Under the pieces are notes generated by a model. It saw nothing but the letters and a program-made list of their open reading frames with translations, was not told the origin of the DNA and did no database searches. 64,000 nt of DNA, taken from an uncultured Dokdonia sp. Its GTDB lineage: Bacteria; Bacteroidota; Bacteroidia; Flavobacteriales; Flavobacteriaceae. The DNA lies in NCBI RefSeq assembly GCF_947496725.1, contig NZ_CANMDS010000003.1:62001-126000 (forward strand). Reading direction: 5' to 3'. Shown one piece after another: positions 29,372 to 51,896 of the stretch (within the stretch, counting starts at the first letter, position 1; each line of letters opens with the position of its first letter). A program made the translations under genes and the position numbers.

Positions 29372-29401
29372 CCACTCGTCGACACTTTTCTACCATCCGT
29401 C
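29372..29401 (+). promoter_or_regulatory. LytTR-type direct-repeat site A (signalling operon)
   Basis: Two 9-bp direct repeats, CCACTCGTC (29372-29380) and CCATCCGTC (29393-29401), are separated by 12 bp. The second repeat ends 55 bp before the candidate -7 box. The geometry equals known LytTR-family targets and suggests that the operon's own LytTR regulator binds here. Confidence 0.7.
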
Positions 29402-29455
29402 TACAGTAAAATGTGTGTTCAACTATTTTTCATCTAAGAATCAATTTTTAATATT

Positions 29456-29463
29456 CATATTTG
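29456..29463 (+). promoter_or_regulatory. Candidate -7 element of the signalling operon
   Basis: CATATTTG matches TAnnTTTG at all but the first base; the site-D promoter has the same octamer. It covers the upstream TTG at 29461, so that codon cannot be the translated start. Confidence 0.5.
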
Positions 29464-29484
29464 TTGACATTTAAAAATAATGAT

Positions 29485-29901
29485 TTGGGGTCAAAAAAAT
29501 TAAAAGTTCTTTTAATAGAGGACGATGCTATTGAAGTTATGAAGCTTAAGAGAGCGATAAAAAAGCTCGAGATGCAACACGACCTCATAGAAGCAAAAAA
29601 TGGAGAAGAAGCGCTTGCTATTCTTAAGGATGAAAATGTGGTTCCAGATATCATATTTTTAGACCTCAATATGCCACGTATAAATGGCATTGAATTCTTG
29701 AAAATTTTAAAAGAAGATGAGGTGTTAAGGTATTTACCTACCATCATACTTACAACATCAAGTAACCGAAAGGATGTACTAGAATGTTACAAACACGGAG
29801 TTGCTGGTTATATCTTAAAGCCGCTTAAGTATGATGATTACGTTCAGAAAATAGAACGCACACTTAATTACTGGAGTCAGAACGAACTAATAAAAGCATA
29901 A
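29485..29901 (+). CDS. Single-domain response regulator (CheY/RcpA-like)
   Basis: This is a stand-alone receiver domain of about 138 residues. The acidic pocket IEDD (11-14), phospho-acceptor Asp60 in FLDLNMP, the switch Thr in LTTSSN and the Lys in LKPL are all present. With no output domain it should act as a phosphate shuttle or sink, as in kinase-receiver-Hpt relays. The start is taken as TTG at 29485 (MGSKKLKVLLIEDD) because the TTG at 29461 lies in the promoter and no in-frame ATG precedes the core. Its stop overlaps the H-NOX start by one base. It is the first gene of the seven-gene signalling operon. Confidence 0.88.
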   Translation: MGSKKLKVLLIEDDAIEVMKLKRAIKKLEMQHDLIEAKNGEEALAILKDENVVPDIIFLDLNMPRINGIEFLKILKEDEVLRYLPTIILTTSSNRKDVLECYKHGVAGYILKPLKYDDYVQKIERTLNYWSQNELIKA

Positions 29902-30443
29902 TGAAAGGAATTGTATTTACAGAATTTTTAGATCTTGTAGAAGATAAGTTTGGACTAGAAATGGTTGACACCCTTCTTGCTAACTCAGAACTTCCGTCTA
30001 ATGGAGTTTATACAGCAGTAGGTACTTATAGCTTTGCAGAGATGGTGAGTTTACTTACTAATCTAAATAAGGAAACTGGTATCGCTATAGACGACTTATT
30101 ATTAGTTTATGGAGAGCACTTTTTTAGTGTAGTAAAGAAGAGTTACCCAGAGTTTTTACTTCAATTTAAAGATCCTTTTGATATGCTAGGATCTATAGAA
30201 AACCACATACACGTCGAGGTTATAAAAATATATCCTGATGCAGAGTTGCCTACCTTTGAAATTGTTAAACAGACTGAAAATGAGCTGGTAATGATTTATA
30301 CGTCTAGTAGGGCGATGCACTCTTTTGGTAGAGGATTAATGAATAAAACATTTGAGCATTTTAATCAAAAAGCTACTATCTTAGTCGAGAAACTAAACGA
30401 TAAGGGTACTGAAGTTAAATTCAGTATCACTGCAGATGAGTGA
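29901..30443 (+). CDS. H-NOX heme nitric-oxide sensor protein
   Basis: A 180-residue stand-alone H-NOX (heme-nitric oxide/oxygen binding) domain starting MKGIVFTEFLDLVEDKFG, as in the family. The proximal heme ligand His102 is at its canonical position (ENHIHVEV). The heme-propionate motif YxSxR is present as YTSSR at 133-137. The residue equivalent to the distal Tyr140 of O2-binding H-NOX proteins appears to be Phe, which favours NO over O2. In other bacteria H-NOX proteins inhibit a partner histidine kinase when NO binds. Here the next gene is a kinase that overlaps it by 8 bp, the standard operon sign of partnership. Confidence 0.93.
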   Translation: MKGIVFTEFLDLVEDKFGLEMVDTLLANSELPSNGVYTAVGTYSFAEMVSLLTNLNKETGIAIDDLLLVYGEHFFSVVKKSYPEFLLQFKDPFDMLGSIENHIHVEVIKIYPDAELPTFEIVKQTENELVMIYTSSRAMHSFGRGLMNKTFEHFNQKATILVEKLNDKGTEVKFSITADE

Positions 30444-32409
30444 AGAAAAAATAAAAATGTATGAACGAGCGCTAGCTCGTGAAAAGGCGGCCCGAAAAGA
30501 GGCCGAACGTATTCTTGAAGATAAGTCTCGTGAACTTTTTTATAAAGGGCAAGAGCTACAAAAGGCAAATGAACAACTCGAAGGCCTTGTGCGGGAAAAA
30601 ACCTCAGAACTTAAAGGGGTTTTTGAAAACATAGTTGATGCTTATGTAGTGACCAATCTTTTTGGTGACGTTTTAAAAATGAATGAAGCTGCAGAGCAGT
30701 TACTAGATTTTAATCTTTCAGAAAAGAAAAACCTCCTAGACACTTTACATAAAGATGATGTAGAGAAGGCTGCTACTGCTTTTCAAAAATTATACAGCAC
30801 AGGCTCTCTCACAGGTTTTAATGTAAGGATTGTCGCTCACGGTAAAACAGTACTACTTGAACTCAATGCAAGTATCGTTTATGATGAAAATCAAATCCCA
30901 ATAGCTGCACAAGGGATTGTACGTGATATAACCGCACAAAAAGCCGCAGAGCGTAAACTTCTCAATTCAGAAAACAGACTCTCTGCAGTGATCTCAAACC
31001 TTGAGAGCGGGATATTACTAGAAGACGAGAACAGAAAAGTAGTGATTGCAAACGAGCGTTTTTGCGACTTCTTTAATATGGCTAGTACTCCAGCTGAGCT
31101 CATAGGTCAAGATTGTACTAATGCAGCAGAGCGATACAAACACCTTTTTGAAAATGAAGAGCGTTTTGTAACTAGAATTAACACACTTATTAAACTTAAA
31201 GAGCAAGTAGTAGGTGATGAATTGCACCTCAAAGATGGCAGAATATTAGAAAGAGATTTTATACCCATCTATGAAGAAGGCATTTACAAAGGTCACCTTA
31301 CCACTTACAGGGATGTAACATTACATAGAAGGTTTAGAAAAAATATTGAGGCAGAAAGGGCTAAGTACAGTAGTATCATTGCAAATATGGAACTGGGTCT
31401 TGTAGAGGTAGATAATGACGACAAGATTCTTATGGTAAACCAGAGTCTTGAAGAAATGTCTGGTTATACTGAAAATGAATTAATAGGCAAGAAGGGTAGT
31501 GAAGTACTTCTTGATGAGAGCTCAAGACAGGGACTCATAGAAGAAAATCAAAAACGCCTTGAAGGCTCATCAAACTCTTATGAGGTAGTCGCAGTGACTA
31601 AAAAAGGAGAAAAGAGACACTGGCTTATAAGTGGAGCGCCAAATTATGATCTAAGTGGTAATATTATAGGCTCTATAGGTATCCACCTTGACATTACAGC
31701 TATTAAAGAACTTGAATTACAAAAAGAGAGTTTATTACAAAAGCTAGCTTCTAGTAATCACGAGTTGCAAGAATATGCACACGTGGTTTCTCACGATTTA
31801 AAGTCTCCATTGCGTAGTCTTGATGCACTATTAACCTGGGTGAAAGAAGATAATGCAGAGGTACTGTCAAGCGATAGTTTAGAAAACTTAGACTTGATGG
31901 GTACCACGCTAGAGAAGATGGAGCAACTCATATCTGATGTGCTTGAATACTCAAGTGTCTCATCAGATGATAAAGAGGAGGAAGATGTATCTGTCTCTGG
32001 AGTAATAGATGATATAGAAAAGTTACTCCACATCCCTGATAATATACGTATAGAGCGAGAAACCACTTTACCTATTATAAAAGCAGATAGAGTGCGTATA
32101 CAACAGCTCTTTCAAAACTTAATGAGTAATGCCATACGTTACTCAGATAAGGAACAGGGTGTTATTAAAATAGCTTGTAAAGAAGGAAAAACACACAATA
32201 CATTCTCTGTATCTGATAATGGGATAGGTATTGAGAAAGAATATCATCATAAGATATTTGAGATCTTTCAATCCCTTAATAAACATAAGGACTCTACAGG
32301 TATAGGTTTATCTATAGTTAAGAAGATAGTAGACTTGTACTCTGGTGAAATTTGGTTAGAAAGTATACAGGGAGAAGGAACAACATTTTTCTTCACATTA
32401 AAAAAATAA
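30436..32409 (+). CDS. Three-PAS histidine kinase, probable H-NOX partner
   Basis: A 657-residue soluble kinase. A charged coiled coil (residues 1-60, EKIKMYERALAREKAARKEAERI) is followed by three PAS domains (about 60-175, 180-300 and 305-425). The HisKA dimerisation helix has the phospho-His in HVVSHDLKSPLRSL, and the HATPase domain carries NLMSNAIRYSD, DNGIGI and GIGLSIVKKIVD. No membrane helix is present, so input must come from a cytosolic partner, most simply the overlapping H-NOX. The kinase core is closely similar to that of the second kinase three genes on, so the two probably arose by duplication. Confidence 0.92.
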   Translation: MSEEKIKMYERALAREKAARKEAERILEDKSRELFYKGQELQKANEQLEGLVREKTSELKGVFENIVDAYVVTNLFGDVLKMNEAAEQLLDFNLSEKKNLLDTLHKDDVEKAATAFQKLYSTGSLTGFNVRIVAHGKTVLLELNASIVYDENQIPIAAQGIVRDITAQKAAERKLLNSENRLSAVISNLESGILLEDENRKVVIANERFCDFFNMASTPAELIGQDCTNAAERYKHLFENEERFVTRINTLIKLKEQVVGDELHLKDGRILERDFIPIYEEGIYKGHLTTYRDVTLHRRFRKNIEAERAKYSSIIANMELGLVEVDNDDKILMVNQSLEEMSGYTENELIGKKGSEVLLDESSRQGLIEENQKRLEGSSNSYEVVAVTKKGEKRHWLISGAPNYDLSGNIIGSIGIHLDITAIKELELQKESLLQKLASSNHELQEYAHVVSHDLKSPLRSLDALLTWVKEDNAEVLSSDSLENLDLMGTTLEKMEQLISDVLEYSSVSSDDKEEEDVSVSGVIDDIEKLLHIPDNIRIERETTLPIIKADRVRIQQLFQNLMSNAIRYSDKEQGVIKIACKEGKTHNTFSVSDNGIGIEKEYHHKIFEIFQSLNKHKDSTGIGLSIVKKIVDLYSGEIWLESIQGEGTTFFFTLKK

Positions 32410-32413: not shown

Positions 32414-33544
32414 ATGAAAACAGTACAGTTACAGCGACAAAAAGATAAAGAATGGCAGTACCTGTCTGAAAATGTTTCATTAAAATCGCCTTTGGTTCTC
32501 GTTTTTGGTAACAGGTATTTGCTTGAGGATGCTGCTATTTATGAAGAAGTACGATCACTGTTTCCAGATGGCCACCTCATTTTTGGTTCTTCTAGTGGTG
32601 AGATTGTTGCTGGTGCGGTAAATGATGAGCACATTACAATTACAGCAATTGAGTTTGAAAAGACGCGATTTGAAGTACAAACAACGTCTATTATAGAAGC
32701 TCATAATGATAGTGAGCAAGCGGGAAGAACTGTGGTAGAAAAGCTGAGTAAAGAGGGGCTTAAGCACATTTTTGTAATTTCTGAAGGTAGCTCTGTAAAT
32801 GGATCTGCACTTACAAAAGGAATGCAAGAGGCCGCACCAGAAGTTCTTATCACTGGAGGTCTTTGTGGTGATGATGCTCGTTTTGAGAGAACGCTTGCTT
32901 CATATAACCAGCAACCCAAAGAGGGAGAGATTATAGTCATAGGTTTTTATGGAGAAACCTTTGAAGCCTCCTTTTCAATCTATGGTGGCTGGACGCCTTT
33001 TGGTCCAGAGCGACTTATTACTAAGTCTGAAGGAAACGTTCTTTATGAAATAGATGGGAAACCAGCATTAGATTTATACAAGAGATACTTAGGAGATAAA
33101 GCAGAGGAGTTACCTGGGTCTGCACTCATATACCCGCTCAATGTGAAAAGTCAGGAAAATGAACAATCTTTTGTGCGCACCATACTTAATATAGATGAGG
33201 AGCAAAATGCGATGATACTTGCTGGTGATGTTCCTGAGAAGGCTACAGTACAACTTATGATGACTAATATGGATAACATAGCCATTGCATCAGAGACTGC
33301 AGCAAGTAGAGCGATGGAAGGAAGAAAAACACCACCAGAGCTTGCGCTACTTATAAGTTGCATAGGGCGTAAACTCGTACTAGACCAGCGTGTAGAAGAA
33401 GAGGTAGAGGAGGTAATGAGCGTGATAGGTAATGATACCACCATAGCCGGTATGTATTCTTATGGTGAGATTGCACCATTTTATGGTGAGCAAAGTTGCA
33501 AATTGCATAACCAGACAATGACTATCACTTTAATAAGCGAATAG
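32414..33544 (+). CDS. FIST-domain sensor protein (NosP-like)
   Basis: A 376-residue protein made of FIST_N and FIST_C sensory domains. The N part includes HLIFGSSSGEIVAGAVNDEHI and ITGGLCGDDARF. The C part ends with AGMYSYGEIAPF and CKLHNQTMTITLIS, the conserved FIST_C tail. Some FIST proteins (NosP) are heme proteins that bind nitric oxide and regulate a co-encoded kinase that signals through Hpt. Here it directly precedes a sensorless kinase and an Hpt, the NosP gene order. Whether this member binds heme is not proven; candidate ligands include the His in KLHNQT. Confidence 0.85.
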   Translation: MKTVQLQRQKDKEWQYLSENVSLKSPLVLVFGNRYLLEDAAIYEEVRSLFPDGHLIFGSSSGEIVAGAVNDEHITITAIEFEKTRFEVQTTSIIEAHNDSEQAGRTVVEKLSKEGLKHIFVISEGSSVNGSALTKGMQEAAPEVLITGGLCGDDARFERTLASYNQQPKEGEIIVIGFYGETFEASFSIYGGWTPFGPERLITKSEGNVLYEIDGKPALDLYKRYLGDKAEELPGSALIYPLNVKSQENEQSFVRTILNIDEEQNAMILAGDVPEKATVQLMMTNMDNIAIASETAASRAMEGRKTPPELALLISCIGRKLVLDQRVEEEVEEVMSVIGNDTTIAGMYSYGEIAPFYGEQSCKLHNQTMTITLISE

Positions 33545-34576
33545 ATGAACCCGCTCTTAAAAAGACAAATACGAAAATACCTCCCAGAAGACTTAAAAGA
33601 TAGAGAAGATCTAGCTGTGTTTATGGATGCTATTAGTGGCTCTTATGACACCTTAGACAATCAGTTCAAAATGACTCAGAGAGCAATGATGCTCAGTTCA
33701 GAAGAGCTTTTTGAGGCAAATAAATTATTAAGACAAGAAACAGCTCAGCAAAAGTCATTACTAGATAGGTTACAAGCTGTAATTCATAAAGCAAATCCAG
33801 ATAATATTGATGAGAATGCAGAGGAGAGAAACCTAGCAGAGTACATAAGTGAGCAAGCAGAAGAGCTTATACGAGTTAATGAAAATCAAGAGTTGTTATT
33901 ACAAGAACTTGCATTACAAAATCAAGAACTTAACGATTATGCTCATATCGTTTCTCACGACTTAAAATCACCACTACGTAGCATAGAAGCTCTCATAAGC
34001 TGGCTACAAGAAGATTATGAAGAGGCACTGGGTGATGACGGTAAAGAGCAAATAAAACTCATCGTATCACATCTAGAAAAGATGGATGCCCTCATCTCTG
34101 GTATATTGAGCTACTCCTCTATAGATAAGGACTTACGCAAAGAGCGAGAGATAGATCTTAATGCATTACTAGATGAAGTAGTAAATCTACAAGCTGTCCC
34201 TAGTAATGTTGAGGTGATTATAAAAAAGCTACCCGCGATCGTGGCAGATAAGGTAAAAATCCAGCAATTATTTCAGAACCTCGTAGGTAATGCCATTGCA
34301 AATATGGATAAACCAGAAGGTAAGGTGACCATAAGTTGCGAGATAGTCGCTCGGGCTCCCAGATTTAAAATAGCAGATAATGGTAAGGGTATCAACAAAG
34401 CTTACTTTGAGAAAATTTTTCAGATTTTCCAAAAATTAGATAGTAATACCTCAGGTACCGGCATAGGCCTCTCCATAGTAAAAAAGATTATAAACTTTTA
34501 CGGCGGTAAGATCTGGCTTGAGAGCGAAGAAGGAGTAGGAACAACTTTTTATTTTACATTACCACATACTACATAA
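33545..34576 (+). CDS. Histidine kinase without own sensor domain (FIST partner)
   Basis: A 343-residue cytosolic kinase that starts one base after the FIST stop. The first 125 residues are helical and predicted coiled coil (MNPLLKRQIRKYL, SSEELFEANKLLRQETAQQKSLL) with no PAS or GAF domain. HisKA has HIVSHDLKSPLRSIEALISWL. The HATPase part has NLVGNAIANMD, DNGKGI and GTGIGLSIVKKII. The core matches the PAS kinase upstream almost segment by segment. Lack of a sensor domain plus tight linkage to FIST implies that FIST is its input. Confidence 0.9.
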   Translation: MNPLLKRQIRKYLPEDLKDREDLAVFMDAISGSYDTLDNQFKMTQRAMMLSSEELFEANKLLRQETAQQKSLLDRLQAVIHKANPDNIDENAEERNLAEYISEQAEELIRVNENQELLLQELALQNQELNDYAHIVSHDLKSPLRSIEALISWLQEDYEEALGDDGKEQIKLIVSHLEKMDALISGILSYSSIDKDLRKEREIDLNALLDEVVNLQAVPSNVEVIIKKLPAIVADKVKIQQLFQNLVGNAIANMDKPEGKVTISCEIVARAPRFKIADNGKGINKAYFEKIFQIFQKLDSNTSGTGIGLSIVKKIINFYGGKIWLESEEGVGTTFYFTLPHTT

Positions 34577-34894
34577 ATGGAAAAGCCTAATCTAAGCTAC
34601 ATACAAGAACTTTCAGGTGGAGACGCATCTTTTGAAAAAGTACTCATCGGGGTGGTACAAGCAGAGCTTCCTGTGGAGATCGCAGAATATGAAGAGAATA
34701 TGAAAAATTCCGCTTTCGCGAAAGCGGCAGAAAACGTACATAAAATCAAGCACAAGCTAGGTATAGTAGGCCTCGTAGATGGGTACGAACTTGCCATCAC
34801 TTATGAAGCCGAACTTAAAGAAGATAACACACGCCTGGAACAAGCATTTAAAGACATCTTAAATAGCGTCATAGATTTTATAAAAGATTTATAA
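34577..34894 (+). CDS. Histidine phosphotransfer (Hpt) protein
   Basis: A 105-residue Hpt domain with phospho-accepting His55 in VHKIKHKLGIVGL, the equivalent of HxLKG. It begins directly after the second kinase stop codon. It should carry phosphate from the kinases, through the single-domain receiver, to the LytTR regulator encoded next. The iterated palindrome encodes AFAKA at residues 46-50, five residues before the phospho-His, on the helix that leads into the active site. Confidence 0.9.
   Translation: MEKPNLSYIQELSGGDASFEKVLIGVVQAELPVEIAEYEENMKNSAFAKAAENVHKIKHKLGIVGLVDGYELAITYEAELKEDNTRLEQAFKDILNSVIDFIKDL
34710..34727. repeat. Iterated palindrome, copy 7 (inside hpt gene)
   Basis: Perfect 18-bp palindrome CCGCTTTCGCGAAAGCGG, read as Ser-Ala-Phe-Ala-Lys-Ala. 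Confidence 0.9.
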
Positions 34895-34920: not shown

Positions 34921-35652
34921 ATGCCTCATATGTTGAATTGTATAATTGTAGATGATGAAACTGCTGCGAGAACTATAGTCTCGCATTTATGTAGTCAAGT
35001 AGATAACCTTACTGTAGTAGATGACTTCCCTAACGCGATGCAAGCGATTAAGTTTTTAAATAAAAACGAGGTCGATCTTATATTCTTGGATATACATATG
35101 CCAGATTTTACGGGTTTTGACTTTATAGACTCGCTTAAAAATCCGCCAAAGATTGTTCTCACCACTTCAGACCGTGACTTTGCTATTGAGGCTTTTGAGT
35201 ACGATTGTATTGTAGATTACCTAGTAAAACCTATTACATTACCTAGATTCCTTAAGGCAATGCAAAAGGTAGAAAGCTTTAAAGCACCTGTGGTTCAAAA
35301 AGCAGCTCCTGTTGTACAAGAAGCAAAGCAAGAAGAGTCAGAAAAAGAGATGTATGTAAATATAGACAGGCGTCTCATAAAGATTGTATTTGATAACATA
35401 TTTCTTATCGAGGCAAAAGGCGACTACGTACTCATAAAAACCGAAGGGAAGAATTATACAGTACACTCTACACTTAAAAAGATAGAAGAAAAACTGCCAG
35501 ACAGCTTGTTCTTAAAAGTACATCGCTCTTATATCATTAATATTAAGAAAATAGTTGATATTGAGGATAATAGCGTCCTCATAGCAAGAGATGTAATCCC
35601 TATAAGTCGTTCTAATAGACCAGAACTTATGAAGCGACTCAACTTGTTGTAA
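34921..35652 (+). CDS. LytTR-family response regulator, output of the phosphorelay
   Basis: A 243-residue regulator: a receiver domain (about residues 4-120; acidic pocket VDDE, phospho-Asp57 in FLDIHMP, LTTSDRD and LVKPITL) joined by an AP/QE-rich linker to a LytTR DNA-binding domain (about 143-243). The LytTR domain shows FLIEAKGDYVLI, FLKVHRSYIINI and VIPISRSNRPELMKRL. A second Met at codon 4 (34930) is an equally good start. LytTR domains bind two 9-bp direct repeats about 12 bp apart. Exactly such repeats precede this operon and four downstream transcription units, so this protein is the natural candidate to bind them. It ends the signalling operon (27 bp after hpt). Confidence 0.93.
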   Translation: MPHMLNCIIVDDETAARTIVSHLCSQVDNLTVVDDFPNAMQAIKFLNKNEVDLIFLDIHMPDFTGFDFIDSLKNPPKIVLTTSDRDFAIEAFEYDCIVDYLVKPITLPRFLKAMQKVESFKAPVVQKAAPVVQEAKQEESEKEMYVNIDRRLIKIVFDNIFLIEAKGDYVLIKTEGKNYTVHSTLKKIEEKLPDSLFLKVHRSYIINIKKIVDIEDNSVLIARDVIPISRSNRPELMKRLNLL

Positions 35653-35663: not shown

Positions 35664-35714
35664 CCATTCGTCTACAGTAAACTACCACTCGTCGATATCA
35701 CGACTAGTGCTATC
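35664..35714 (+). promoter_or_regulatory. LytTR-type direct-repeat site B (T9SS protein promoter)
   Basis: CCATTCGTC (35664-35672) and CCACTCGTC (35685-35693) are 21 bp apart, with a weaker third unit AGTGCTATC (35706-35714) at the next 21-bp step. The last two end 53 and 32 bp before the -7 box. Confidence 0.75.
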
Positions 35715-35745: not shown

Positions 35746-35753
35746 TAATTTTG
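35746..35753 (+). promoter_or_regulatory. -7 element of the T9SS protein gene
   Basis: TAATTTTG, a perfect TAnnTTTG match, 28 bp before the ATG at 35782. Confidence 0.6.
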
Positions 35754-35781: not shown

Positions 35782-38388
35782 ATGAAATCAAATCTTTACT
35801 CACTAGCACAACAAGTTTTCTTAGTAGCTTGCTTAGTATGTACTTTTAATGTAAGTGCACAAGACACTCCATTTAACTGTGATTACAGTGCATACTTATT
35901 TCAGTATAATGATGTATATGCGATAGACCTAGCCTCTGGAAACTCTTTTCTAGCGGCCGAAAATATAACTACTGGTAACATTAACGCTGCAGCATATAAC
36001 CCTGCAGATGGTTTTATATGGGGGTATTTATCTAGCCCATCAAAATCTATTGTGAGAATAGGTCAAGACTTTAGCACAACCGTTTTTACTATAGATGCAC
36101 TTACCACGGGTAATAAGTATATAGGAGACATAAGCGCTACGGGACAGTATTATTTTAAAGCTGGAGGTAGTACGTATTATAAAGTAGACTTAGACCCAAC
36201 CTCAAGTACATACACAGAGTTTTTAAGCACAGAGACGCTATCACAAAGCATTAACGTGCACGACTGGGCTTTTAATGCAGTAGATAATCAACTATATACT
36301 GTAGAAAAAAATTCAAACATACTATACCGTATTAATCCAGAAAATGGAGTAGTGCAGTCACTTGGAGAAGTACCTATCTTATCTGGTCTTAAATACACCT
36401 ATGGTGCTGTATATTTTGATGCATCAGGGAGATTTTATGTCTCTGCAAACCAGACAGGAACTATCTATGTAATACAAAGTGTGCAAGACCTAACGGGAAG
36501 TAATAGTATGGATTCAAACCTCTTTGCTTTTGGACCATCTAGTAATAGTAATGATGGCGCTCGTTGCCCTACTGCACCAGTTTTACAAGAAATATGTGAT
36601 AACGGTATAGATGATGACGGAGACGGTCTTACAGATTGTGAAGATCCATCTTGCTCTGGATATGGAGACTGTGCAACTATAGATCCAGAAGCTTCTACTG
36701 GAAATAAGGGCGGTCTTGAGAGTAACAATAGATTATCTAATGCAATTGCAAAACGTAATTTTAACCGTGCAAAAGAGAGCTATACATTTAATAAAGACCT
36801 AGCCCCACTTAAAGAAAAAACAGCAAACTATGGAGTGAGAAATGCACAGTCATTTACACTACAAGATTTTATCCCTCTAGAAGAAATAAATGAAGACTAT
36901 GTAGTAGAGTCTACTCCAGAAGACCTTGTTGATATTACAAATGCTACAGAAGTATATGCTGTAGACTATATTAAAAATGATATCTCTACCGCTTCTATAC
37001 TAGCACTCAAAACTGAAAATGGCGTATATGAGCACACTAAGTATATCTGTGATCGTTTACTAGGAGCAGAGCTTACCTCTGTGTCTACCATAGAGATTAA
37101 TGGACAGCAGTTTATCAAATCCCTTATAAGAAATATAGACGGCAGTGTAGAATTTGTTTTAAGCCTTTCGGCGAAAGAAGTAAATAACGGAGCAGAGTTT
37201 GCCGTAGAGAGCCACTGGAATCTAGATCGCTATGAAGAAGAGGTAACCTTTTATAACTTCCAAATATGGGCAAACTCAATAGATGACCTTCATAAACTAG
37301 GACAACAATTATTAAACTTACTTGAAGTACAAAAACCAGTAACATCTTATGAGGTTACAACACCACCTACAGTTTTTGTAAAAAGCGGTAGCTATACAAA
37401 TGGTGCATTACAACTACAGATTGTAAACACAAATGCAACAGAGAGTGTAACCTTTGATGCAGGTATAAGAGCTACAGAGACAAGTGATCTCGTGACAACT
37501 ACCTCTATAATAGATCTAGGAGAACAGTACATCACAGAAGTTACTATTGACACAGGTTATTTATTTGACATAGGCTTTAGAATAGGAGATGGTATAAACA
37601 CACCAGATGACTTATTTCTATCTGATGGGCCTTGGGGAGTAGATGCTTCGCAAGATGGTACAGAAGTACTCTCTTATGAGATTACAGAAAATGAGAATAC
37701 CTATAGTGATGAGGTATATGCTATAGAGCGTAACCTTGCCTTCACAGCAACAACAACGAGTTATGTAGGAGCTTACAGAGCACTTACTCCACGTTTTCAG
37801 GCAGTAGATGTAAGTAACTATAACGCACTACAGATGAGTGTAAAAGGAACGGGTAACCTAGAAGTAACCTTTGTAAAAGCAAGCATAGAAAACTGGGAAG
37901 AACAGTACAAAGCAACCATTGAGCTTACAGATAGCTATCAAGAGATAGACTTCTCACTAGAGAACTTTGTAAACGGCTCTGGTGCACCACTAGTGCTTGA
38001 TGATCTTGTAACGATAGTATTTACAATGGTATCTCAAGATGGAACAACACAAACTAAAGAGATGTTCCTTAATGACATAAGATTTGCAAACTCAGAAGCC
38101 CTTTCGGTAGAAGATGTAGATGCTACAGTAGAGGCGCTAGCCTTAACAAACTATCCTAATCCTTTTATAGGAGAAACTACGATAAGCCTAGCAAAACCAA
38201 GTGCAACGGTACAAATCACAGTAGTAGATATGCTAGGACGCATAGTAGACACGCAAGATATAACAACAAATAATGGAGGGTTAACAGCTGTATACACAGC
38301 TCCAAACCTACAGACAGGCATCTATACCTATAAACTAGTAGATAGTGCCTCACAACAACACAGTGGCAAGTTTGTCATAAAGAGATAA
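35782..38388 (+). CDS. Large secreted protein with T9SS C-terminal sorting domain
   Basis: The 868-residue protein has a signal peptide (ending near CTFNVSAQ) and an N-terminal beta-propeller-like region of about 240 residues (AAYNPADGFIWGYL, ISATGQYYFKAGG, WAFNAVDNQLYTVE). A calcium-binding-type motif follows (EICDNGIDDDGDGLTDCEDP, about 268-287), then a long beta-rich region. The last 80 residues form a type A T9SS sorting domain (NYPNPFIGETTISL, VVDMLGRIV, LQTGIYTYKLV, ending GKFVIKR). It should be exported through the type IX system and anchored on the cell surface or released. Site B makes it a likely output of the LytTR relay; an adhesin or matrix-protein role fits but is inference. Confidence 0.9.
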   Translation: MKSNLYSLAQQVFLVACLVCTFNVSAQDTPFNCDYSAYLFQYNDVYAIDLASGNSFLAAENITTGNINAAAYNPADGFIWGYLSSPSKSIVRIGQDFSTTVFTIDALTTGNKYIGDISATGQYYFKAGGSTYYKVDLDPTSSTYTEFLSTETLSQSINVHDWAFNAVDNQLYTVEKNSNILYRINPENGVVQSLGEVPILSGLKYTYGAVYFDASGRFYVSANQTGTIYVIQSVQDLTGSNSMDSNLFAFGPSSNSNDGARCPTAPVLQEICDNGIDDDGDGLTDCEDPSCSGYGDCATIDPEASTGNKGGLESNNRLSNAIAKRNFNRAKESYTFNKDLAPLKEKTANYGVRNAQSFTLQDFIPLEEINEDYVVESTPEDLVDITNATEVYAVDYIKNDISTASILALKTENGVYEHTKYICDRLLGAELTSVSTIEINGQQFIKSLIRNIDGSVEFVLSLSAKEVNNGAEFAVESHWNLDRYEEEVTFYNFQIWANSIDDLHKLGQQLLNLLEVQKPVTSYEVTTPPTVFVKSGSYTNGALQLQIVNTNATESVTFDAGIRATETSDLVTTTSIIDLGEQYITEVTIDTGYLFDIGFRIGDGINTPDDLFLSDGPWGVDASQDGTEVLSYEITENENTYSDEVYAIERNLAFTATTTSYVGAYRALTPRFQAVDVSNYNALQMSVKGTGNLEVTFVKASIENWEEQYKATIELTDSYQEIDFSLENFVNGSGAPLVLDDLVTIVFTMVSQDGTTQTKEMFLNDIRFANSEALSVEDVDATVEALALTNYPNPFIGETTISLAKPSATVQITVVDMLGRIVDTQDITTNNGGLTAVYTAPNLQTGIYTYKLVDSASQQHSGKFVIKR

Positions 38389-39785: not shown

Positions 39786-41807
39786 TTACATCTTTATAAT
39801 TCCTTTTTCAAGCACTTGCCATCTCAGTTTTAAGCCTACTTCCATAAACTCAAATCCTGCTGCGGTTGCAGAGGCAATGTTACTGTACTTACCATAAGCA
39901 CCCATCTGGAAGCGGTTTGATATCGCATACTGTACTCTGGCTTCTACGCGAAAAAGGGTAGTAGCCTCATCATCTTCTACTACTTGTAAACCTCCTGCTG
40001 CGTTTGCAGCATAGCTCCACTTTCCTGCCTGCCCGGTAAGATCTAAAAATAACTCAACTGCTTGGTATTTTGATGGACTGAAGTACAACGTAGGCACTTG
40101 ATCCTTAAAACCTACATACTGGTAATTGATACCACCTTTAAGCGTTGGGTTTTTTGTAAAGTTGTAGTATAAAGAAGTGAATAGTAAGTTACGAGAGTTT
40201 CCATCTGTTTGCTGCGTGTGCATTAAACCAGTATACCACCCTAGATTTATGTTTGTTCCCATATTGTAATTAAGGGAATAGTTATTCATAAAGATTTTTT
40301 CATCTAGCAGTGCGGCGTTAAAATCTTGTAACGTCCTGCTGTAACCCACCTCTAAAAACTGAAGCGGAAAAGGTCTTGACTTTACAAAAATAGATCCATT
40401 TACATCTGTATACTCATTTGCATCTGCATCTGCTTTTACAAACCCTAGTGTTCCTTCTAGCCAGGTATTATTTATGACTCTATAATGAGCTCCAAGGCTT
40501 GCATTTGTGTTATAAGCCATCGTGTTTGTAGTCATATTTTCGGTAGTACGGTAGTTGTAAGAAAATATAGCCTTAAACCTACTTGTAAATGGCAAGGTAG
40601 CGGTAAGACCAGCCGAGTATGCTTGGTTATCACCATTATCTTCGGTGTATGCAGCTCGTGTTTCAATCACGGGAGCGAGGCTACTTTCTATAGTTTTCAT
40701 TAACCCAGTAGCATCTTTCTGGTTAGGGTAGAAGGTTAAGGTATTTTTCGCGAAAGCGTAAGCCTCATCCAGATTACCCTGTGCACGGTATGCATTTGCA
40801 ATCCCAAGATTTCCGTCAAAAGAGGCACTGTCCTTCTCAAGGATACCGTTATACACCTCGATACTCTTTTTAAAAGTCCCCGTGTACATCCCTAAAGTTG
40901 CCTTAAGGGCAGCCACGCGCGCATTAGTCGGGAAGGTGCTTTTAAGATCTGCAATGGCAGTTCTTGCTGTGGCATATTTTCCGTTCCAGATGAGTGCTTG
41001 TATGTAGCGCTCGTTTGCGGTAATGATTTTTGTAGTGTCCGCTTTCGCGAAAGCGATACTCTCCTGCGCCAGTGATAATGCAAGCTTGTCGTCCTTCTGT
41101 AAGTGAGCAACTAATGATTTACCCACTTGCGATGTTAAGGTATCAGAAAGCTTGCTGTACATTGTGTTTGCATTCTCATAATCCTTCTTTGCGATATAGG
41201 TATTTGCAAGCGCGCTTATGATTTGCTGATCGTTAGGCATATCCTCAAGAGCACTTTTAAGTAATTGTATTGCCGCATCATATTGAAAGGCAGTTGTGAG
41301 TTGGTTTGCCTTACCTAAACGCATAAACTTTTTTGACACCGCAGCATTTGCATTACCAGGTTGTACGGTAAGTGCCTTGTTTACATAAGCGATTGCCGCG
41401 TCATATTCTTTAAGGTTAGAAAGCGTGTTTGCATAACCGAGTAGGGCAGAGAAGCTTGTACTGTCTTTGGCAACGAGGGTTTCATAAAAGTCTTTTGCAG
41501 CGCCAAAATCACTATCCCATAAAAGAGACTCGGCATAGTTTAAGCCCACTTCAAAATCTGTAGGGTAGTCTGCTTTTAGGTTTGTAAAAAGTGTTCTTGC
41601 TTTGCCACTCTCACCACTCAACCCTAGAGCACGACCGTAACAGAGTCTTGCCGTTTTATTATCTGGGTAGTCTTCAAGCACTTCGCCAAAAAATGTTTTT
41701 GCCTCCTCATATTTCCCAGTTTCTAATAAAGTGAAACCTGCAGACATATCTTGGCTGTATGCTGTTGCACCTAATAGGAAAAGAATAATATATGTTAGTT
41801 GTCTCAT
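39786..41807 (-). CDS. TPR protein with C-terminal YaiO-like outer-membrane beta-barrel
   Basis: A 673-residue exported protein. I choose the Met at 41807 because it gives a clean signal peptide (MRQLTYIILFLLGATAYSQ); the 16 residues upstream look spurious. Residues about 20-370 are tetratricopeptide repeats (GKYEEAKTFFGEVLEDYPDNKTARLCYGRAL and others). The last 300 residues alternate in the manner of a YaiO-type outer-membrane barrel and end LKLRWQVLEKGIIKM. TPR-plus-barrel proteins often act in secretion of polysaccharide (compare PgaA, BcsC, PelB), which fits the glycosyltransferase and flippase genes around it. Two palindrome copies encode EAYAFAKNTL and SIAFAKADT in TPR helices. Confidence 0.82.
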   Translation of the reverse strand: MRQLTYIILFLLGATAYSQDMSAGFTLLETGKYEEAKTFFGEVLEDYPDNKTARLCYGRALGLSGESGKARTLFTNLKADYPTDFEVGLNYAESLLWDSDFGAAKDFYETLVAKDSTSFSALLGYANTLSNLKEYDAAIAYVNKALTVQPGNANAAVSKKFMRLGKANQLTTAFQYDAAIQLLKSALEDMPNDQQIISALANTYIAKKDYENANTMYSKLSDTLTSQVGKSLVAHLQKDDKLALSLAQESIAFAKADTTKIITANERYIQALIWNGKYATARTAIADLKSTFPTNARVAALKATLGMYTGTFKKSIEVYNGILEKDSASFDGNLGIANAYRAQGNLDEAYAFAKNTLTFYPNQKDATGLMKTIESSLAPVIETRAAYTEDNGDNQAYSAGLTATLPFTSRFKAIFSYNYRTTENMTTNTMAYNTNASLGAHYRVINNTWLEGTLGFVKADADANEYTDVNGSIFVKSRPFPLQFLEVGYSRTLQDFNAALLDEKIFMNNYSLNYNMGTNINLGWYTGLMHTQQTDGNSRNLLFTSLYYNFTKNPTLKGGINYQYVGFKDQVPTLYFSPSKYQAVELFLDLTGQAGKWSYAANAAGGLQVVEDDEATTLFRVEARVQYAISNRFQMGAYGKYSNIASATAAGFEFMEVGLKLRWQVLEKGIIKM
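40746..40758. repeat. Iterated palindrome, copy 9 (inside TPR gene)
   Basis: TTTCGCGAAAGCG with the left arm lost beyond TTT. It encodes Ala-Phe-Ala-Lys in a TPR helix. Confidence 0.75.
41040..41055. repeat. Iterated palindrome, copy 10 (inside TPR gene)
   Basis: Perfect CGCTTTCGCGAAAGCG, 294 bp from copy 9 in the same gene and the same frame (IAFAKAD). Confidence 0.9.
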
Positions 41808-41993
41808 TGCGTATGTTTTACAAGTGCAAGTTATGGCAATATACAAAGGATTCAATCTTAATGTATCTGCAATTCGTCGACACTTATCGTCGACTGGTGG
41901 AGGTTGCGTAGAGTGTGAGTGGAGTTTTGAGAGAAGTGTGCTGCGAACATCTCCCCAAGGTTCTATTTATTGTTCCTAAAGTCACTTGCCTCC

Positions 41994-42104: not shown

Positions 42105-42224
42105 AACATCTCCCCAAATGTGCCTTCCTCTCGTTCATACTTAACTCGTCGGAGGCAAGTTCAAAGAGGGGCTTTCATCTTTGTGTGCTCCTCCTCTTTG
42201 AAGAGGAGGCTGGGAGGAGATGTT
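42105..42224. repeat. REP/MITE-like inverted-repeat element, copy 2
   Basis: Same ends (AACATCTCCCC ... GGAGATGTT) and internal hairpin as copy 1, but with a 40-bp insert (TGTGCCTTCCTCTCGTTCATAC...) that is shared with copy 3. Confidence 0.8.
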
Positions 42225-42251
42225 TTGCGTTCGAGTGAGAAGTTAGTTGCC

Positions 42252-42367
42252 AACATCTCCCCAAATGTGCCTTCCTCTCGTTCATACTTCACTCGTCGGA
42301 AGCAAGTTCAAAGAGGGCTTCAAGTTGTCACTCCTCCTCTTTGAAGAGGAGGCTGGGAGGAGATGTT
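42252..42367. repeat. REP/MITE-like inverted-repeat element, copy 3
   Basis: Copy 3 shares the insert of copy 2 with a few substitutions and has a diverged left internal arm. A fragment of the right end (GGGAGGAGATGTTTTG) follows at about 42399-42414. No transposase is nearby. Confidence 0.8.
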
Positions 42368-42493
42368 TTTGGGTTTGAGTGAGAAATATATAAATGTCGG
42401 GAGGAGATGTTTTGAATACGAGTAAGAAACAGAGAAGTTTACATAAGACCTTCTACACCCCAAAACCCACTCCTTATATAGTATCACATTAAA

Positions 42494-42544: not shown

Positions 42545-42574
42545 CCACTCGTCTACAGTAAAATTCTACTCATC
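42545..42574 (+). promoter_or_regulatory. LytTR-type direct-repeat site C (peptide/flippase operon)
   Basis: CCACTCGTC (42545-42553) and CTACTCATC (42566-42574) are 21 bp apart. They end 54 and 33 bp before a -7-like CATCTTTG at 42607-42614. The spacer TACAGTAAAATT is nearly the same as in sites A and B. Confidence 0.75.
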
Positions 42575-42606: not shown

Positions 42607-42614
42607 CATCTTTG
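42607..42614 (+). promoter_or_regulatory. Candidate -7 element of the peptide/flippase operon
   Basis: CATCTTTG, TAnnTTTG with the first base changed, 26 bp before the ATG of the 44-residue peptide. Confidence 0.5.
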
Positions 42615-42639: not shown

Positions 42640-42774
42640 ATGGGACTTACAGTAATAAATAACTCAAACACATTAAGAGTAGTACACAACGCTAGAAATA
42701 CACAAGCTAGTAATACATTAAGTGTAGTACACAGAAAGGTAGATAAGCCGGTTATCCAGTTAATGACTTATTAA
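42640..42774 (+). CDS. 44-residue peptide with an internal repeat, first gene of the flippase operon
   Basis: A short ORF starts at ATG 42640 and stops with TAA at 42772-42774. The peptide begins MGLTVINNSNTLRVVHNARN, carries the repeated motif SNTLRVVH / SNTLSVVH 18 residues apart, and ends KPVIQLMTY. It has no signal peptide or membrane helix. It is the first translatable frame after the LytTR-type promoter and lies 9 bp upstream of the flippase gene. The internal repeat, the start 26 bp after the -7 box and the tight coupling argue that it is translated. It could be a leader or regulatory peptide; I know no family. Confidence 0.6.
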   Translation: MGLTVINNSNTLRVVHNARNTQASNTLSVVHRKVDKPVIQLMTY

Positions 42775-42783: not shown

Positions 42784-44022
42784 ATGATCGCTATACAACA
42801 CAAAATCAAAAAGATACTCTCTCCCGAGCAAATATTTATGCTCAGTGCCTTTGTGGTAAATGGAGGAAACTACCTCTATAATTTAGGACTGGGTAGAGTA
42901 CTAGGCCCTGGCGCCTTTGCAGATGCGGCTATACTTATCACCTTGCTACTTGTACTATCATTTGTTGCAATGACTTTTCAGCTAGCAGTTGCAAAGTTTA
43001 CGACGGAGTTTGACAAGTCAAAACAAGAAGCATTTGTACAAAGAGCTTATAAACAAGCTACCACCTTTGGAATCATATTGGGTGCGGCAATTGTAGTTTT
43101 TGCAGGATCGCTGCAAACACTTTTTCAAACAGAATCTTCTGTAATGTTTACCATTTTTGGAATAGCAGTCCCACTTTATTTCATAATGAGCGTAAACAGA
43201 GGAAACCTTCAAGGACGTAAATCCTTTATTGCATTATCAATCACCTATCAATTGGAAATGGTATGCAGACTCGCACTTACATTTGCATTATTACTTTTCT
43301 TCAATATAGAATCGTCTGTCGCGGTAGCTACAGCAATCGCAATCTCTTTTATAGCAGGTGTATTTCCATTTAAAAAATTAACGTCTAAAAAGGCAGTGCA
43401 ATCTGCCCTTACCTCAAAAGAGAGCAAGGCAGTTATGAACTTCTTTGTACTTACTGCGTGCTATGAGCTTACCCAAATCATTTGTAACAACAGTGATATA
43501 CTCTTAGTAAAACACTATTTTCCATCTTATGATGCAGGATTATATGCATCTCTAGCGCTTATAGGTCGCGTAGTTTACTTTGTAACCTGGATGTTTGTAA
43601 TGTTACTATTACCTACAGTAGTTTCTATGCGCAAGGAAGGTAAGAACTCTGTACCTGTACTTATGAAGTATGTAGGGTACATCACAGCCCTTGCTAGTGG
43701 TATTGTGTTATTTACATTTCTGTTTCCATCATTTGCAGTACAAATATTATTTGGAGAACAGTATATGTCTATTGCTCCATTATTAGGTTGGTATGCACTT
43801 GCGACATCTTTTTTTGCCCTATCTAACATTTTTGCCTACTACTATCTATCCCTAGATCATTATAAACCTATTGTAATTGCTGCCATTTTTGGAGTGTTAC
43901 AAATAGTGTTAATCATATTATTCCACGATTCATTGTTTGAAGTTGTTTTAGCCCAAGTAGTTGCAATGGGAAGTTTACTCATTGCTCAATTACTTTATTT
44001 CTGGAAGATGCAAGTAAAGTAA
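42784..44022 (+). CDS. Wzx-like polysaccharide flippase (MOP superfamily)
   Basis: A 412-residue inner-membrane protein with about 12 hydrophobic helices. It opens IFMLSAFVVNGGNYLYNLGLGRVLGPGAFADAAIL, the N-terminal pattern of O-antigen/polysaccharide exporters of the MOP flippase group. Such proteins flip lipid-linked sugar units to the periplasmic face. The neighbouring genes (GT4 and GT2 glycosyltransferases, GT-C-like protein, TPR/barrel protein) support a role in exopolysaccharide assembly. It follows the 44-residue peptide by 9 bp under promoter site C and is ended by a hairpin terminator. Confidence 0.88.
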   Translation: MIAIQHKIKKILSPEQIFMLSAFVVNGGNYLYNLGLGRVLGPGAFADAAILITLLLVLSFVAMTFQLAVAKFTTEFDKSKQEAFVQRAYKQATTFGIILGAAIVVFAGSLQTLFQTESSVMFTIFGIAVPLYFIMSVNRGNLQGRKSFIALSITYQLEMVCRLALTFALLLFFNIESSVAVATAIAISFIAGVFPFKKLTSKKAVQSALTSKESKAVMNFFVLTACYELTQIICNNSDILLVKHYFPSYDAGLYASLALIGRVVYFVTWMFVMLLLPTVVSMRKEGKNSVPVLMKYVGYITALASGIVLFTFLFPSFAVQILFGEQYMSIAPLLGWYALATSFFALSNIFAYYYLSLDHYKPIVIAAIFGVLQIVLIILFHDSLFEVVLAQVVAMGSLLIAQLLYFWKMQVK

Positions 44023-44235: not shown

Positions 44236-44265
44236 TCGTTTATCGAAGGTCAAATACCATTCGTC
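44236..44265 (+). promoter_or_regulatory. LytTR-type direct-repeat site D (STAS-like/GT4 operon)
   Basis: A strong unit CCATTCGTC (44257-44265) ends 54 bp before the -7 box CATATTTG. A weak unit TCGTTTATC (44236-44244) lies one 21-bp step upstream. Confidence 0.6.
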
Positions 44266-44318: not shown

Positions 44319-44326
44319 CATATTTG
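44319..44326 (+). promoter_or_regulatory. Candidate -7 element of the STAS-like/GT4 operon
   Basis: CATATTTG, same octamer as in the signalling-operon promoter, 39 bp before the ATG at 44365. Confidence 0.5.
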
Positions 44327-44364: not shown

Positions 44365-44664
44365 ATGGCACTAGAAATAAACAACATTTACGGAGTAACT
44401 TGTATCAAAGGAAAAGTATCAAACACACACGTACAAGAAGTAAAAGGATACTTTAAAGCATTATTATCTGTAGAAGATAATGTCATCATAAATTTATGTG
44501 AGGTTAAAAAAGGAGCAAAGAAACTAGTAAGAGTTTTAGAAAGCTTACAAGCCGAAATCTCAGAACAAAAATCACTTAAGTTTTTCAGCTATCCAGAGCC
44601 AGCAGTTGCCGAATTATATGCGCAAATTAATAACCAGTCCAACTATTACCAGGCAGCAGCATAA
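44365..44664 (+). CDS. Small STAS-like protein
   Basis: A 99-residue cytosolic protein whose strand-helix pattern resembles STAS/anti-sigma-factor-antagonist domains: GVTCIKGKVSNTHVQEVKGYF, VIINLCEVKKGAKKLVRVLESL, then SLKFFSYPEPAVAELYAQIN. At the place where STAS antagonists have D-S-S-G it reads CEVKKGAKK, so the phosphorylatable Ser is missing and classical partner switching is unlikely. It is first in an operon with the GT4 enzyme (40 bp gap) under LytTR-type site D, so it may regulate or scaffold polysaccharide synthesis. The fold assignment is tentative. Confidence 0.6.
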   Translation: MALEINNIYGVTCIKGKVSNTHVQEVKGYFKALLSVEDNVIINLCEVKKGAKKLVRVLESLQAEISEQKSLKFFSYPEPAVAELYAQINNQSNYYQAAA

Positions 44665-44704
44665 GACAACACAAATTACTATAACAACATCAAATCTATA
44701 TATT

Positions 44705-45907
44705 ATGAAACTAGCAATCGTAACGGCCTATCCACCGAGCAAAGTAACTTTAAACGAATATGCATACCACTTAGTAAAGCACTTTCGTCAAAACCAAGAA
44801 GTAACAGAACTGGTACTTCTTACAGATGTAACTCCAGACCAAGCAGATATCACTTTTGAAGAAGATGGATGTGAGATTACAGTAAAGCAATGTTGGAAAT
44901 TCAACAGCTTAAAAAATGTATTTTCTATCGCAAAAGCCGTAAGAGCAACTCAACCAGATGCAGTACTTTATAACCTACAATTTATGAAGTTTGGAGATAA
45001 GAAGGTAGCTGCAGCGCTAGGATTGTTTTCTCCTTGGGTATCAAAAATGATGGGAGTAAAAACAACGGTATTACTTCACAATATAATGGAAACTGTAGAT
45101 CTTGATAGTGCAGGTTTTACAAGTAATAAATTAAAAATAAAGGCATATAACTTCATAGGCGAGATGCTTACTCGTGTGGTACTTAAAGCAGATACTGTGG
45201 CGCTTACCATCAGTAAATATGTAGACATACTAGAAGAGAAGTATAACGCAAAAAATTGTGTACTGATCCCTCACGGTACCTTTGAGATTCCAGAAGAGCC
45301 ATCTTATGATGTTGCACCAGGTCCTTTAAAAATAATGACGTTCGGAAAATTTGGGACCTACAAGAAAGTAGAGATACTTATAGAAGCTGTTCAAATCGTA
45401 AGAGAGCAAACTGGTCGTGATCTTGAGATCGTAATTGCTGGTACAGATAGTCCTAACACGCCAGGATACCTAGCAGAAGTTCAAGAAGTATACAAACACG
45501 TTCCTAATCTTACATTTACAGGTTATGTGGAGGAAGAAGATGTACCTGTAATCTTTTCAGAAAGTGCGATGGTTGTTTTTCCATACACATCTACTACGGG
45601 AAGCTCAGGAGTATTACACCAGGCTGGGAGTTATGGTAAGGCAGTAGTAATGCCAGACTTAGGAGATCTAGGTATTCTTGTAAAAGAAGAAGGATATAGA
45701 GGTGAGTTTTTTAACCCAGAGAGTTTACATAGTCTAGCTACAGGAATCCAAAACCTTGTAACAAACGACGCTTACAGAACAGAAATAGCAAAGGCAAATT
45801 ATCAAGCAGCTACAGCATTACCTATGAGCCGTATTGCTCAAATGTATATAGATGTTTTTAATGGCACATCAAGAAGAACAAAAAACACCACATTAATGGC
45901 AGCATAA
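44705..45907 (+). CDS. GT4-family glycosyltransferase
   Basis: A 400-residue GT-B glycosyltransferase. The start at 44705 (MKLAIVTAYPPSKV) gives the canonical N-terminal strand and glycine-free loop; 33 upstream in-frame residues overlap the STAS-like gene and look spurious. The C-terminal donor domain has the usual GT4 order: HGTFEI, then KIMTFGKFGTYKKVEILIEAV, then PNLTFTGYVEEEDV, and FPYTSTTGSSGVLHQAGSYGKAVV (the EX7E-type region, here with Ser/Gly in place of the first Glu). It probably adds a sugar, possibly mannose, to a lipid-linked polysaccharide unit. Its stop abuts the stop of the convergent glycosidase gene. Confidence 0.87.
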   Translation: MKLAIVTAYPPSKVTLNEYAYHLVKHFRQNQEVTELVLLTDVTPDQADITFEEDGCEITVKQCWKFNSLKNVFSIAKAVRATQPDAVLYNLQFMKFGDKKVAAALGLFSPWVSKMMGVKTTVLLHNIMETVDLDSAGFTSNKLKIKAYNFIGEMLTRVVLKADTVALTISKYVDILEEKYNAKNCVLIPHGTFEIPEEPSYDVAPGPLKIMTFGKFGTYKKVEILIEAVQIVREQTGRDLEIVIAGTDSPNTPGYLAEVQEVYKHVPNLTFTGYVEEEDVPVIFSESAMVVFPYTSTTGSSGVLHQAGSYGKAVVMPDLGDLGILVKEEGYRGEFFNPESLHSLATGIQNLVTNDAYRTEIAKANYQAATALPMSRIAQMYIDVFNGTSRRTKNTTLMAA

Positions 45908-51746: not shown

Positions 51747-51783
51747 TTGGGAGTGAAAAGATACCCTTTTTAATATTCTGATT

Positions 51784-51791
51784 CAAAGATA
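51784..51791 (-). promoter_or_regulatory. -7 element of the GT-C-like/Ig/glycosidase operon
   Basis: Minus-strand TATCTTTG matches TAnnTTTG, 38 bp before the ATG at 51746. Two good CCATTCATC/CCATTCGTC units lie on the minus strand just upstream (51800-51808 and 51819-51827) but are spaced 19 bp and sit closer to the -7 box than at the other sites. Confidence 0.6.
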
Positions 51792-51805
51792 GTTCTTTCG
51801 ATGAA

Positions 51806-51856
51806 TGGTTCATCCTTCGACGAATGGTAACCGTCGATACAAAGAATCCAGCCATC
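51806..51856 (+). promoter_or_regulatory. LytTR-type direct-repeat site E (GT2/manA operon)
   Basis: Three units at exact 21-bp steps: TGGTTCATC (51806-51814), GTAACCGTC (51827-51835) and CCAGCCATC (51848-51856). The last two end 54 and 33 bp before the -7 box. Units are weaker than at sites A-C, but the phase is the same. Confidence 0.6.
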
Positions 51857-51888
51857 GAAAATTCAAAAAAATAGCTGCAATCTGGGGG

Positions 51889-51896
51889 TATGTTTG
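51889..51896 (+). promoter_or_regulatory. -7 element of the GT2/manA operon
   Basis: TATGTTTG, a perfect TAnnTTTG match, 37 bp before the ATG at 51934. Confidence 0.6.

Follow-up and report, generated by a model that had tools for sequence, protein, structure and literature searches.

The window analysed here is a 64,000-nucleotide stretch of DNA from an uncultured Dokdonia sp. (positions 62001-126000 of contig C3 in a 3.29 Mb Flavobacteriaceae genome). It carries an operon encoding, in order, a receiver protein, an H-NOX gas sensor, a PAS-domain histidine kinase, a FIST-domain protein, a second kinase, a putative HPt protein and a LytTR response regulator. The operon is followed by a gene for a secreted DUF6923 protein and by a set of polysaccharide genes (Table 1). 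A flippase, glycosyltransferases and an export porin, the last recognised by weak matches, occur together in this set, and we read it as a putative exopolysaccharide cluster. Direct repeats spaced 21 bp from start to start lie upstream of the operon and of several of these genes, and their relation to the LytTR regulator is the subject of this report.

The first-pass annotation had placed such repeats, with units resembling CCAYTCGTC, at five promoters (sites A to E), and each of its unit start coordinates was found in the sequence. Sites A to D hold up: A, B and C are strong, and D has one perfect unit. Their scores on a matrix built from 145 training sites in relatives far exceed simulated sequence, and the training genomes were all foreign, with the window's own genome and its closest relative (L010) excluded. 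Site E is marginal. Thirty Markov-1 simulations of the window reached a top matrix score of 10.6, above the 8.9 of site E, so the units of E alone are not beyond chance. The best unit at E is CCATTCGTC on the minus strand (51819-51827), with CCATTCATC 19 bp from it, a pair absent from the first-pass annotation. These two strong units (51800-51827, 19 rather than 21 bp apart) face a 1029-residue gene and lie about 8 bp upstream of a TATCTTTG box. An extra unit at 41870 has no phased -7 box; similar sequence occurs at the corresponding place in the relatives L010, L011 and L014.

Within the genome, the strong repeats are concentrated in this cluster. Exact CCAYTCGTC occurs 13 times, six of them inside the 22-kb cluster, and the exact 11-mer CYAYYCRTCKA 20 times, nine of them in the cluster stretch. 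When 21-bp-spaced pairs were sought among those 20 exact 11-mers, only three were found, and they are A, B and C. The 17-mer CCAYTCRTCKACASTWA has seven copies at up to one mismatch, six in the cluster; the remaining copy (C5:157372) is unpaired, with 10 mismatches on either side. It is the clustering and spacing that are unusual, not the abundance, since the unit counts are lower than those of reversed controls (13 vs 42 for exact CCAYTCGTC, and 657 vs 1182 for single units with up to one mismatch). At up to three mismatches the 17-mer has 104 matches vs 119 for its reversed control, so weak distal sites in this genome are indistinguishable from chance. We also considered a motif common to all LytTR proteins of the genome and rejected it, as no pair with up to four mismatches at a spacing of 20-22 bp occurs in about 3.3 kb around each of the other eight LytTR genes found.

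Relatives of the locus provide an independent view of the spacing. We compared the best 80 of 390 loci found by the LytTR protein, whose LytTR proteins are 69-93% identical to the one here; the closest among these, at 93%, is from an uncultured Dokdonia. Pairs of 11-bp units with up to three mismatches number 239 at a spacing of 21 bp vs 0-30 at any one of the remaining 49 spacings in the range 11-60 bp, in counts that include overlapping triplet pairs and related genomes. The 30 pairs at 42 bp fit triplets of 21-bp units. At up to one mismatch there are 74 pairs at 21 bp vs two summed over the 49 other spacings. The 21-bp pair is found in 79/80 loci, and 236/239 pairs are on the regulator's strand. 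The conserved unit reaches about 17 bp, CCATTCGTCKACASTWA. Known LytTR sites have at least two direct repeats, each about 9 bp long and separated by 11-13 bp (PMC4847170), typically near 12 bp (PMC4064291, PMC6193735, PMC4847170), and the 21-bp peak matches this architecture.

The position of the pair relative to genes is also conserved. It is present at the operon promoter in 73/78 testable relatives, in the 500 bp past the LytTR gene in 35/80, and upstream of the flippase in 30/42. It also lies upstream of the DUF6923 protein in 21/35 (homologues at least 50% identical), of the group 1 glycosyltransferase (GT1) homologue in 14/29, and of the family 2 glycosyltransferase (GT2) in 2/9.

Each of the five window sites is followed by a -7 box, at 54 bp (A), 52 bp (B), 32 bp (C) and 53 bp (D) past the second unit and at 32 bp past the last unit of E. 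The box TAnnTTTG is the sigma-A element at -12 to -5 (PMC9723704); the boxes at A, C and D (3/5) fit it only if C replaces the first T. The rough chance of a loose box (NAnnTTTG) at all five sites, with six allowed offsets, is 2e-10, for five sites that were supplied rather than sampled, and the independent tests of phase and spacing are the spacing and box counts in relatives. There, the strict box occurs 41 times at 31-32 bp and 30 times at 52-54 bp past the second unit, where 0.16 would be expected per offset. Counted per pair at 31-33 or 52-54 bp, the strict box is found at 71/239 and the loose box at 133/239. A fixed promoter distance, as at LytTR targets, is thus present at all five window sites and, by the loose box, at those 133 pairs. 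The phased loose box lies at 31-32 bp in the flippase promoter (25 times) and mostly at 52-54 bp in the operon promoter (20 times, with three at 32-33 bp).

The repeats and the regulator tend to occur in the same genomes. Among 299 genomes of the family, 114 have a LytTR relative (called at E <=1e-60) and 69 have the exact 17-mer, which occurs in 66/114 genomes with the regulator vs 3/185 without it. The resulting counts (66 with both, 3 with the motif only, 48 with the regulator only, 182 with neither) give p = 5e-31 by a Fisher test that ignores shared ancestry. Of 117 motif copies, 100 lie within 30 kb of a regulator gene, where about two would be expected at random, and 98 are on its strand; the reversed-pattern control has one match across all 299 genomes. 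The earlier claims of LytTR architecture, of a fixed phase to the -7 box, of a link between repeats and regulator and of feedback on the regulator's own operon are all supported by the comparison with relatives.

That annotation did not include the H-NOX/FIST relay or the exopolysaccharide targets. Across the 80 relatives, at more than 40% coverage and with some loci cut by contig ends, the second kinase, HPt and LytTR genes are present in 80, the receiver in 78, H-NOX in 77, the PAS kinase in 67 and FIST in 48; the two kinase counts overlap because the queries for both kinases may match a single gene. The FIST matches comprise 41 full-length proteins (56-81% identity) and seven partial ones (24-28%), and in the window both the N and C domains of FIST were found by domain search. 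NosP is a heme-binding FIST protein that senses NO, and the protein here, of NosP-like architecture, may be one. The HPt phospho-His is conserved in 76/80 relatives. H-NOX and LytTR occur together in 99 of the 299 genomes, H-NOX alone in six, LytTR alone in 15 and neither in 179 (p = 1.5e-54), and in 92/99 genomes with both, H-NOX lies within 10 kb of LytTR on the same strand. The nearest solved structures to this H-NOX are 6bde (E 1.6e-78) and 6bdd (1.2e-77). The proximal heme His and the Tyr-x-Ser-x-Arg motif have known roles in H-NOX proteins; the His and Tyr-x-Ser are present in 77/77 relatives, and the Arg in 72/77, with Lys in the other five. As a sequence comparison, the survey of relatives thus supports the sites, their spacing and phase, the co-occurrence, the gene neighbourhood and the conserved active residues.

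Taken together, we consider it very likely that the LytTR protein is an autoregulated activator, probably responsive to a gas, that controls the exopolysaccharide cluster. The repeats would be its tandem binding sites. Once phosphorylated, the regulator would bind as dimers or short oligomers spaced by two helical turns along the same face of the DNA, and would recruit the housekeeping RNA polymerase. The unit nearer the promoter, whose end lies about 32 (or 53) bp upstream of the TAnnTTTG box, would adjoin the -33 region or sit one period further up, with the second unit two turns upstream. Site A would provide feedback on the regulator's operon, and sites B to E would activate the genes for the secreted protein and for exopolysaccharide synthesis. 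Putative targets after these sites are the DUF6923 gene (B), the flippase (C), the 99-residue protein and the group 1 glycosyltransferase (D) and the family 2 glycosyltransferase (E). Phosphate may reach the regulator through the operon kinases, the receiver and HPt, under control of H-NOX (and of FIST where present). With the relay under such control, exopolysaccharide output is probably set by a diatomic gas, for instance nitric oxide (NO), in a direction that we can only infer. We likewise infer activation from promoter geometry. Repeats of autoregulated LytTR systems lie mostly 10 bp upstream of the -35 element and give positive feedback (PMC6193735); adding a 6-bp -35 element and a 17-bp spacer places the end of the unit about 33 bp upstream of the -10 element, close to the 32 bp seen here.

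Several observations weigh against this model. Even the loose box is missing from the expected offsets at 106/239 pairs, site E is marginal by sequence though in phase with its -7 box, and the Fisher p-values take no account of shared ancestry. The operon-promoter controls are not all zero, with 12 of 78 relatives at spacing 22, seven at 25, 18 at 42 and two on the opposite strand. The exact 17-mer is absent from 48/114 regulator-positive genomes; of 20 of these examined, 16 have a relaxed 21-bp pair (26 such pairs, vs no more than four at every other spacing in the range 15-40) and four have no pair even by the relaxed pattern. L045 is the sole locus of the 80 without a pair, and L045, L064 and L068, labelled Tenacibaculum and without an H-NOX match, have weak or no pattern matches; inspection by eye shows a GTTCGTC variant in the operon promoters of these three. 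Three genomes (L094, L098 and L100) have the 17-mer without the regulator. Neither L098 nor L100 has a second unit (7-8 mismatches on either side) or, by the criterion used, a downstream open reading frame (ORF). L094, whose genome is 87% complete with no regulator detected, has a good pair upstream of a 473-residue ORF, possibly a true site. An ORF of 60 residues or more starts within 120 nt of 10 of the 17 distal copies and at 361 nt from the one in L092, whereas six have none within 500 nt; several are on other contigs of draft genomes, where the distance to the regulator is not fixed. The HPt protein has Asn for His in 4/80 relatives. Finally, 15/114 genomes with the regulator have no H-NOX match and full-length FIST is found in just 41/80 relatives, so gas sensing is not strictly required.

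These last absences, together with the several PAS matches in the first kinase, suit a system in which the LytTR targets are real and the signal is another one (a PAS input, redox or another kinase), with H-NOX as a modulator or passenger. We regard this as possible though doubtful, given how regularly H-NOX accompanies LytTR on the same strand and the conservation of its heme residues. It is unlikely that the regulator represses, or that its effect is activation with the box at one position and repression with the box at the other. The two positions, about 32 and about 53 bp, with the operon mostly at 52-54 and the flippase at 31-32, would suit such a dual action, and the LytTR regulator AlgR both activates and represses (PMC4064291); however, published autoregulatory repeats lie mostly 10 bp before the -35 element and give positive feedback (PMC6193735), and this geometry, about 33 bp from the -10 element, is close to the 32 bp here.

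That a different, unlinked but co-inherited protein binds the repeats seems very improbable. LytTR binding here is a prediction, and conservation over about 17 bp is longer than the classical 9-bp LytTR unit, but 182/185 genomes without this LytTR gene also lack the exact motif, most motif copies (100/117) lie near it, the spacing and core fit LytTR targets, and LytTR is the sole operon protein with a Pfam DNA-binding domain. Chance or low-complexity repetition could account for the weak units (the first of D, the third of B and those of E), but as an explanation of the whole it is scarcely credible: spacing, phase and reversed-pattern controls rule it out for A to C and for the family-wide pattern, if not for E alone.

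Table 1. Sites, -7 boxes and genes in the window, by position.
Feature	Position	Strand	Remarks
Site A: CCACTCGTC (29372), CCATCCGTC (29393)	29372..29401	+	units 21 bp apart, upstream of the regulator's own operon; matrix 44.1
-7 box CATATTTG	29456..29463	+	site A, regulator operon
RR1, single receiver	29461..29901	+	PF00072; no DNA-binding domain matched; Asp conserved 78/78
H-NOX heme gas sensor	29901..30443	+	PF07700, E 1.5e-38
Histidine kinase with PAS domains	30436..32409	+	several PAS matches
FIST-domain protein, NosP-like architecture	32414..33544	+	PF08495 + PF10442
Second histidine kinase	33545..34576	+	PF00512/PF02518; no sensor domain matched; phospho-His 80/80
Putative HPt phosphotransfer protein	34577..34894	+	PF01627, E 6.6e-5, 23.5 bits vs curated cut-off 24.6
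LytTR response regulator	34921..35652	+	PF00072 + PF04397 over cut-off; Asp57 80/80; proposed binder of all sites
Site B: CCATTCGTC (35664), CCACTCGTC (35685), weak third unit AGTGCTATC (35706)	35664..35714	+	matrix 44.3
-7 box TAATTTTG	35746..35753	+	site B
Secreted DUF6923 protein, type IX secretion C-terminal tail	35782..38388	+	PF21959, PF18962; after site B
TPR protein, BcsC/PgaA-like C-terminus	39786..41855	-	PF14559, PF05420; PgaA model 52 bits vs cut-off 367
Extra unit CAATTCGTCGACACTTA	41870..41886	+	upstream of TPR gene, on the opposite strand to it; matrix 12.9
Site C: CCACTCGTC (42545), CTACTCATC (42566)	42545..42574	+	matrix 43.1
-7 box CATCTTTG	42607..42614	+	site C
44-residue ORF	42640..42774	+	between site C and flippase; similar short ORF in L010, L012, L014, L017, L056
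Polysaccharide flippase-like membrane protein	42784..44022	+	PF13440; after site C
Site D: poor TCGTTTATC (44236), perfect CCATTCGTC (44257)	44236..44265	+	matrix 20.4
-7 box CATATTTG	44319..44326	+	site D
99-residue protein	44365..44664	+	STAS-like by eye only; no Pfam match; after site D
Group 1 glycosyltransferase	44696..45907	+	PF13692, PF00534
Site E: weak TGGTTCATC, GTAACCGTC, CCAGCCATC	51806..51856	+	spaced 21 bp; matrix 8.9
-7 box TATGTTTG	51889..51896	+	site E
Family 2 glycosyltransferase	51934..52743	+	PF00535; after site E
Phosphomannose isomerase	52800-53768		PF20511; after family 2 glycosyltransferase

Some gene assignments in the window require comment. RR1 probably starts later than the listed TTG at 29461, perhaps at TTG 29485. 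The weakly matching TPR protein is a probable polysaccharide export porin, and its gene likely starts at an ATG near 41807. Judged by eye, the two halves of the 44-residue ORF after site C are similar. A 147-bp unit is repeated in tandem 2.6 times in the interval that separates the TPR gene from site C (42013-42385). The palindrome CTTTCGCGAAAG has 18 copies in the whole window at up to one mismatch, vs 0.11 expected; copies lie near sites A, C and D (e.g. 29339, 42494, 44299) and also elsewhere, including within ORFs.

Distal sites in other genomes often precede genes of similar kinds. In two nearly complete genomes the site and the regulator share a contig but are over 1.9 Mb apart: in L106 it is upstream of a DUF6923 homologue (31% identical) and in L093 upstream of a receiver protein. 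In draft genomes, on other contigs than the regulator, sites precede a DUF6923 protein 57% identical to the one here (L097) and a receiver-GT2 fusion (L105). In L099, the protein encoded after a distal site has a STAS_2 match below threshold.

Most phased sites (136/153) have an ORF within 150 nt downstream, and eight of the 153 have a terminator-like hairpin before any nearby ORF. Two of the eight belong to L128 (genome G071), where three tandem 238-bp copies lie downstream of the LytTR gene (9900-10620). In each copy the 21-bp pair is followed by about 75 nt that lack an evident ORF and contain two hairpins, of which the second resembles a terminator; a -7 box at offset 32 was found in copies two and three but not in the first. 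This region has no Rfam match up to E 0.5. It is possibly a LytTR-driven small-RNA array, a triplicated cassette of promoter, RNA and terminator. The other sites (L053 10723, L079 10831, L085 10896, L064 11296, L040 14551 and, on the minus strand, L129 7725) are candidate promoters of short untranslated RNAs, and some of their hairpins may end the LytTR operon.

Our results make a regulatory code readable for a large bacterial family, with its regulator, probable binding unit, promoter geometry, putative targets and a link to a heme gas sensor. They also suggest that the unusual -7 box of Bacteroidetes is compatible with promoter geometry of the LytTR type. If the proposed control is correct, surface polysaccharide, and with it perhaps attachment or aggregation, is set by a gas, for example NO, which denitrification produces. 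It is tempting to speculate, as a tentative extension, that a switch from NO to exopolysaccharide operates family-wide, in which LytTR ends an H-NOX/FIST/HPt relay and reads a unit of about 17 bp every 21 bp, with small untranslated RNAs added in some genomes. With such a unit and period, protomers may cover near-continuous DNA as a short filament.

In the papers searched, which were mostly non-subscription literature and available in part, we found no description of an H-NOX-to-LytTR link or of the 17-bp repeating unit. Within those parts, LytTR in one paper that covers both H-NOX and LytTR concerns AgrA, the one paper found on LytTR and Bacteroidetes direct repeats describes unrelated repeats, and among the listed papers that match the motif letters none is related by title. 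The closest parallel in sequence is the AlgR box CCGTTCGTC of Pseudomonas aeruginosa alginate control, whose core nearly equals the CCATTCGTC found here (PMC4064291). Like the protein here, AlgR is a LytTR-type response regulator; its targets are exopolysaccharide genes (PMC4064291), as those here are proposed to be. Unlike those of AlgR, the units here are in tandem, 21 bp apart and phased to a -7 box, their conservation extends on to KACASTWA, and the sensor is different.

The repeats of Streptococcus mutans-type systems are often ACCACTTAC-like and are found with ordinary -35/-10 promoters, unlike those here. To our knowledge, the S. mutans LytTR Regulatory Systems have no receiver. They do have an inhibitory membrane protein, unlike the system here (PMC6193735). 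HdrRM, BrsRM and their relatives likewise have 9-bp direct repeats with mostly 12-bp gaps, a fixed promoter distance and positive autoregulation (PMC6193735).

On the sensor side, Vibrio fischeri H-NOX/HahK/SypF, which controls syp exopolysaccharide, and Shewanella H-NOX, with HnoC feedback, have an H-NOX beside a kinase, as this locus does, and an HPt step, exopolysaccharide output and transcriptional feedback (PMC8738867), as proposed for it. In V. fischeri, the kinase pathway is under NO-dependent inhibition by H-NOX, which reduces biofilm (PMC8738867). In both organisms the output runs through other regulators or cyclic di-GMP enzymes, and the available part of the paper names no LytTR regulator (PMC8738867). 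Of the two nearest solved structures, 6bde and 6bdd, the latter is the Kordia algicida protein, used for gas-diffusion simulations in a paper whose available part discusses no regulator (PMC7356049). Overall, the system appears to work like a LytTR direct-repeat regulon, and we class it as one, with putative binding of its regulator to the repeats.

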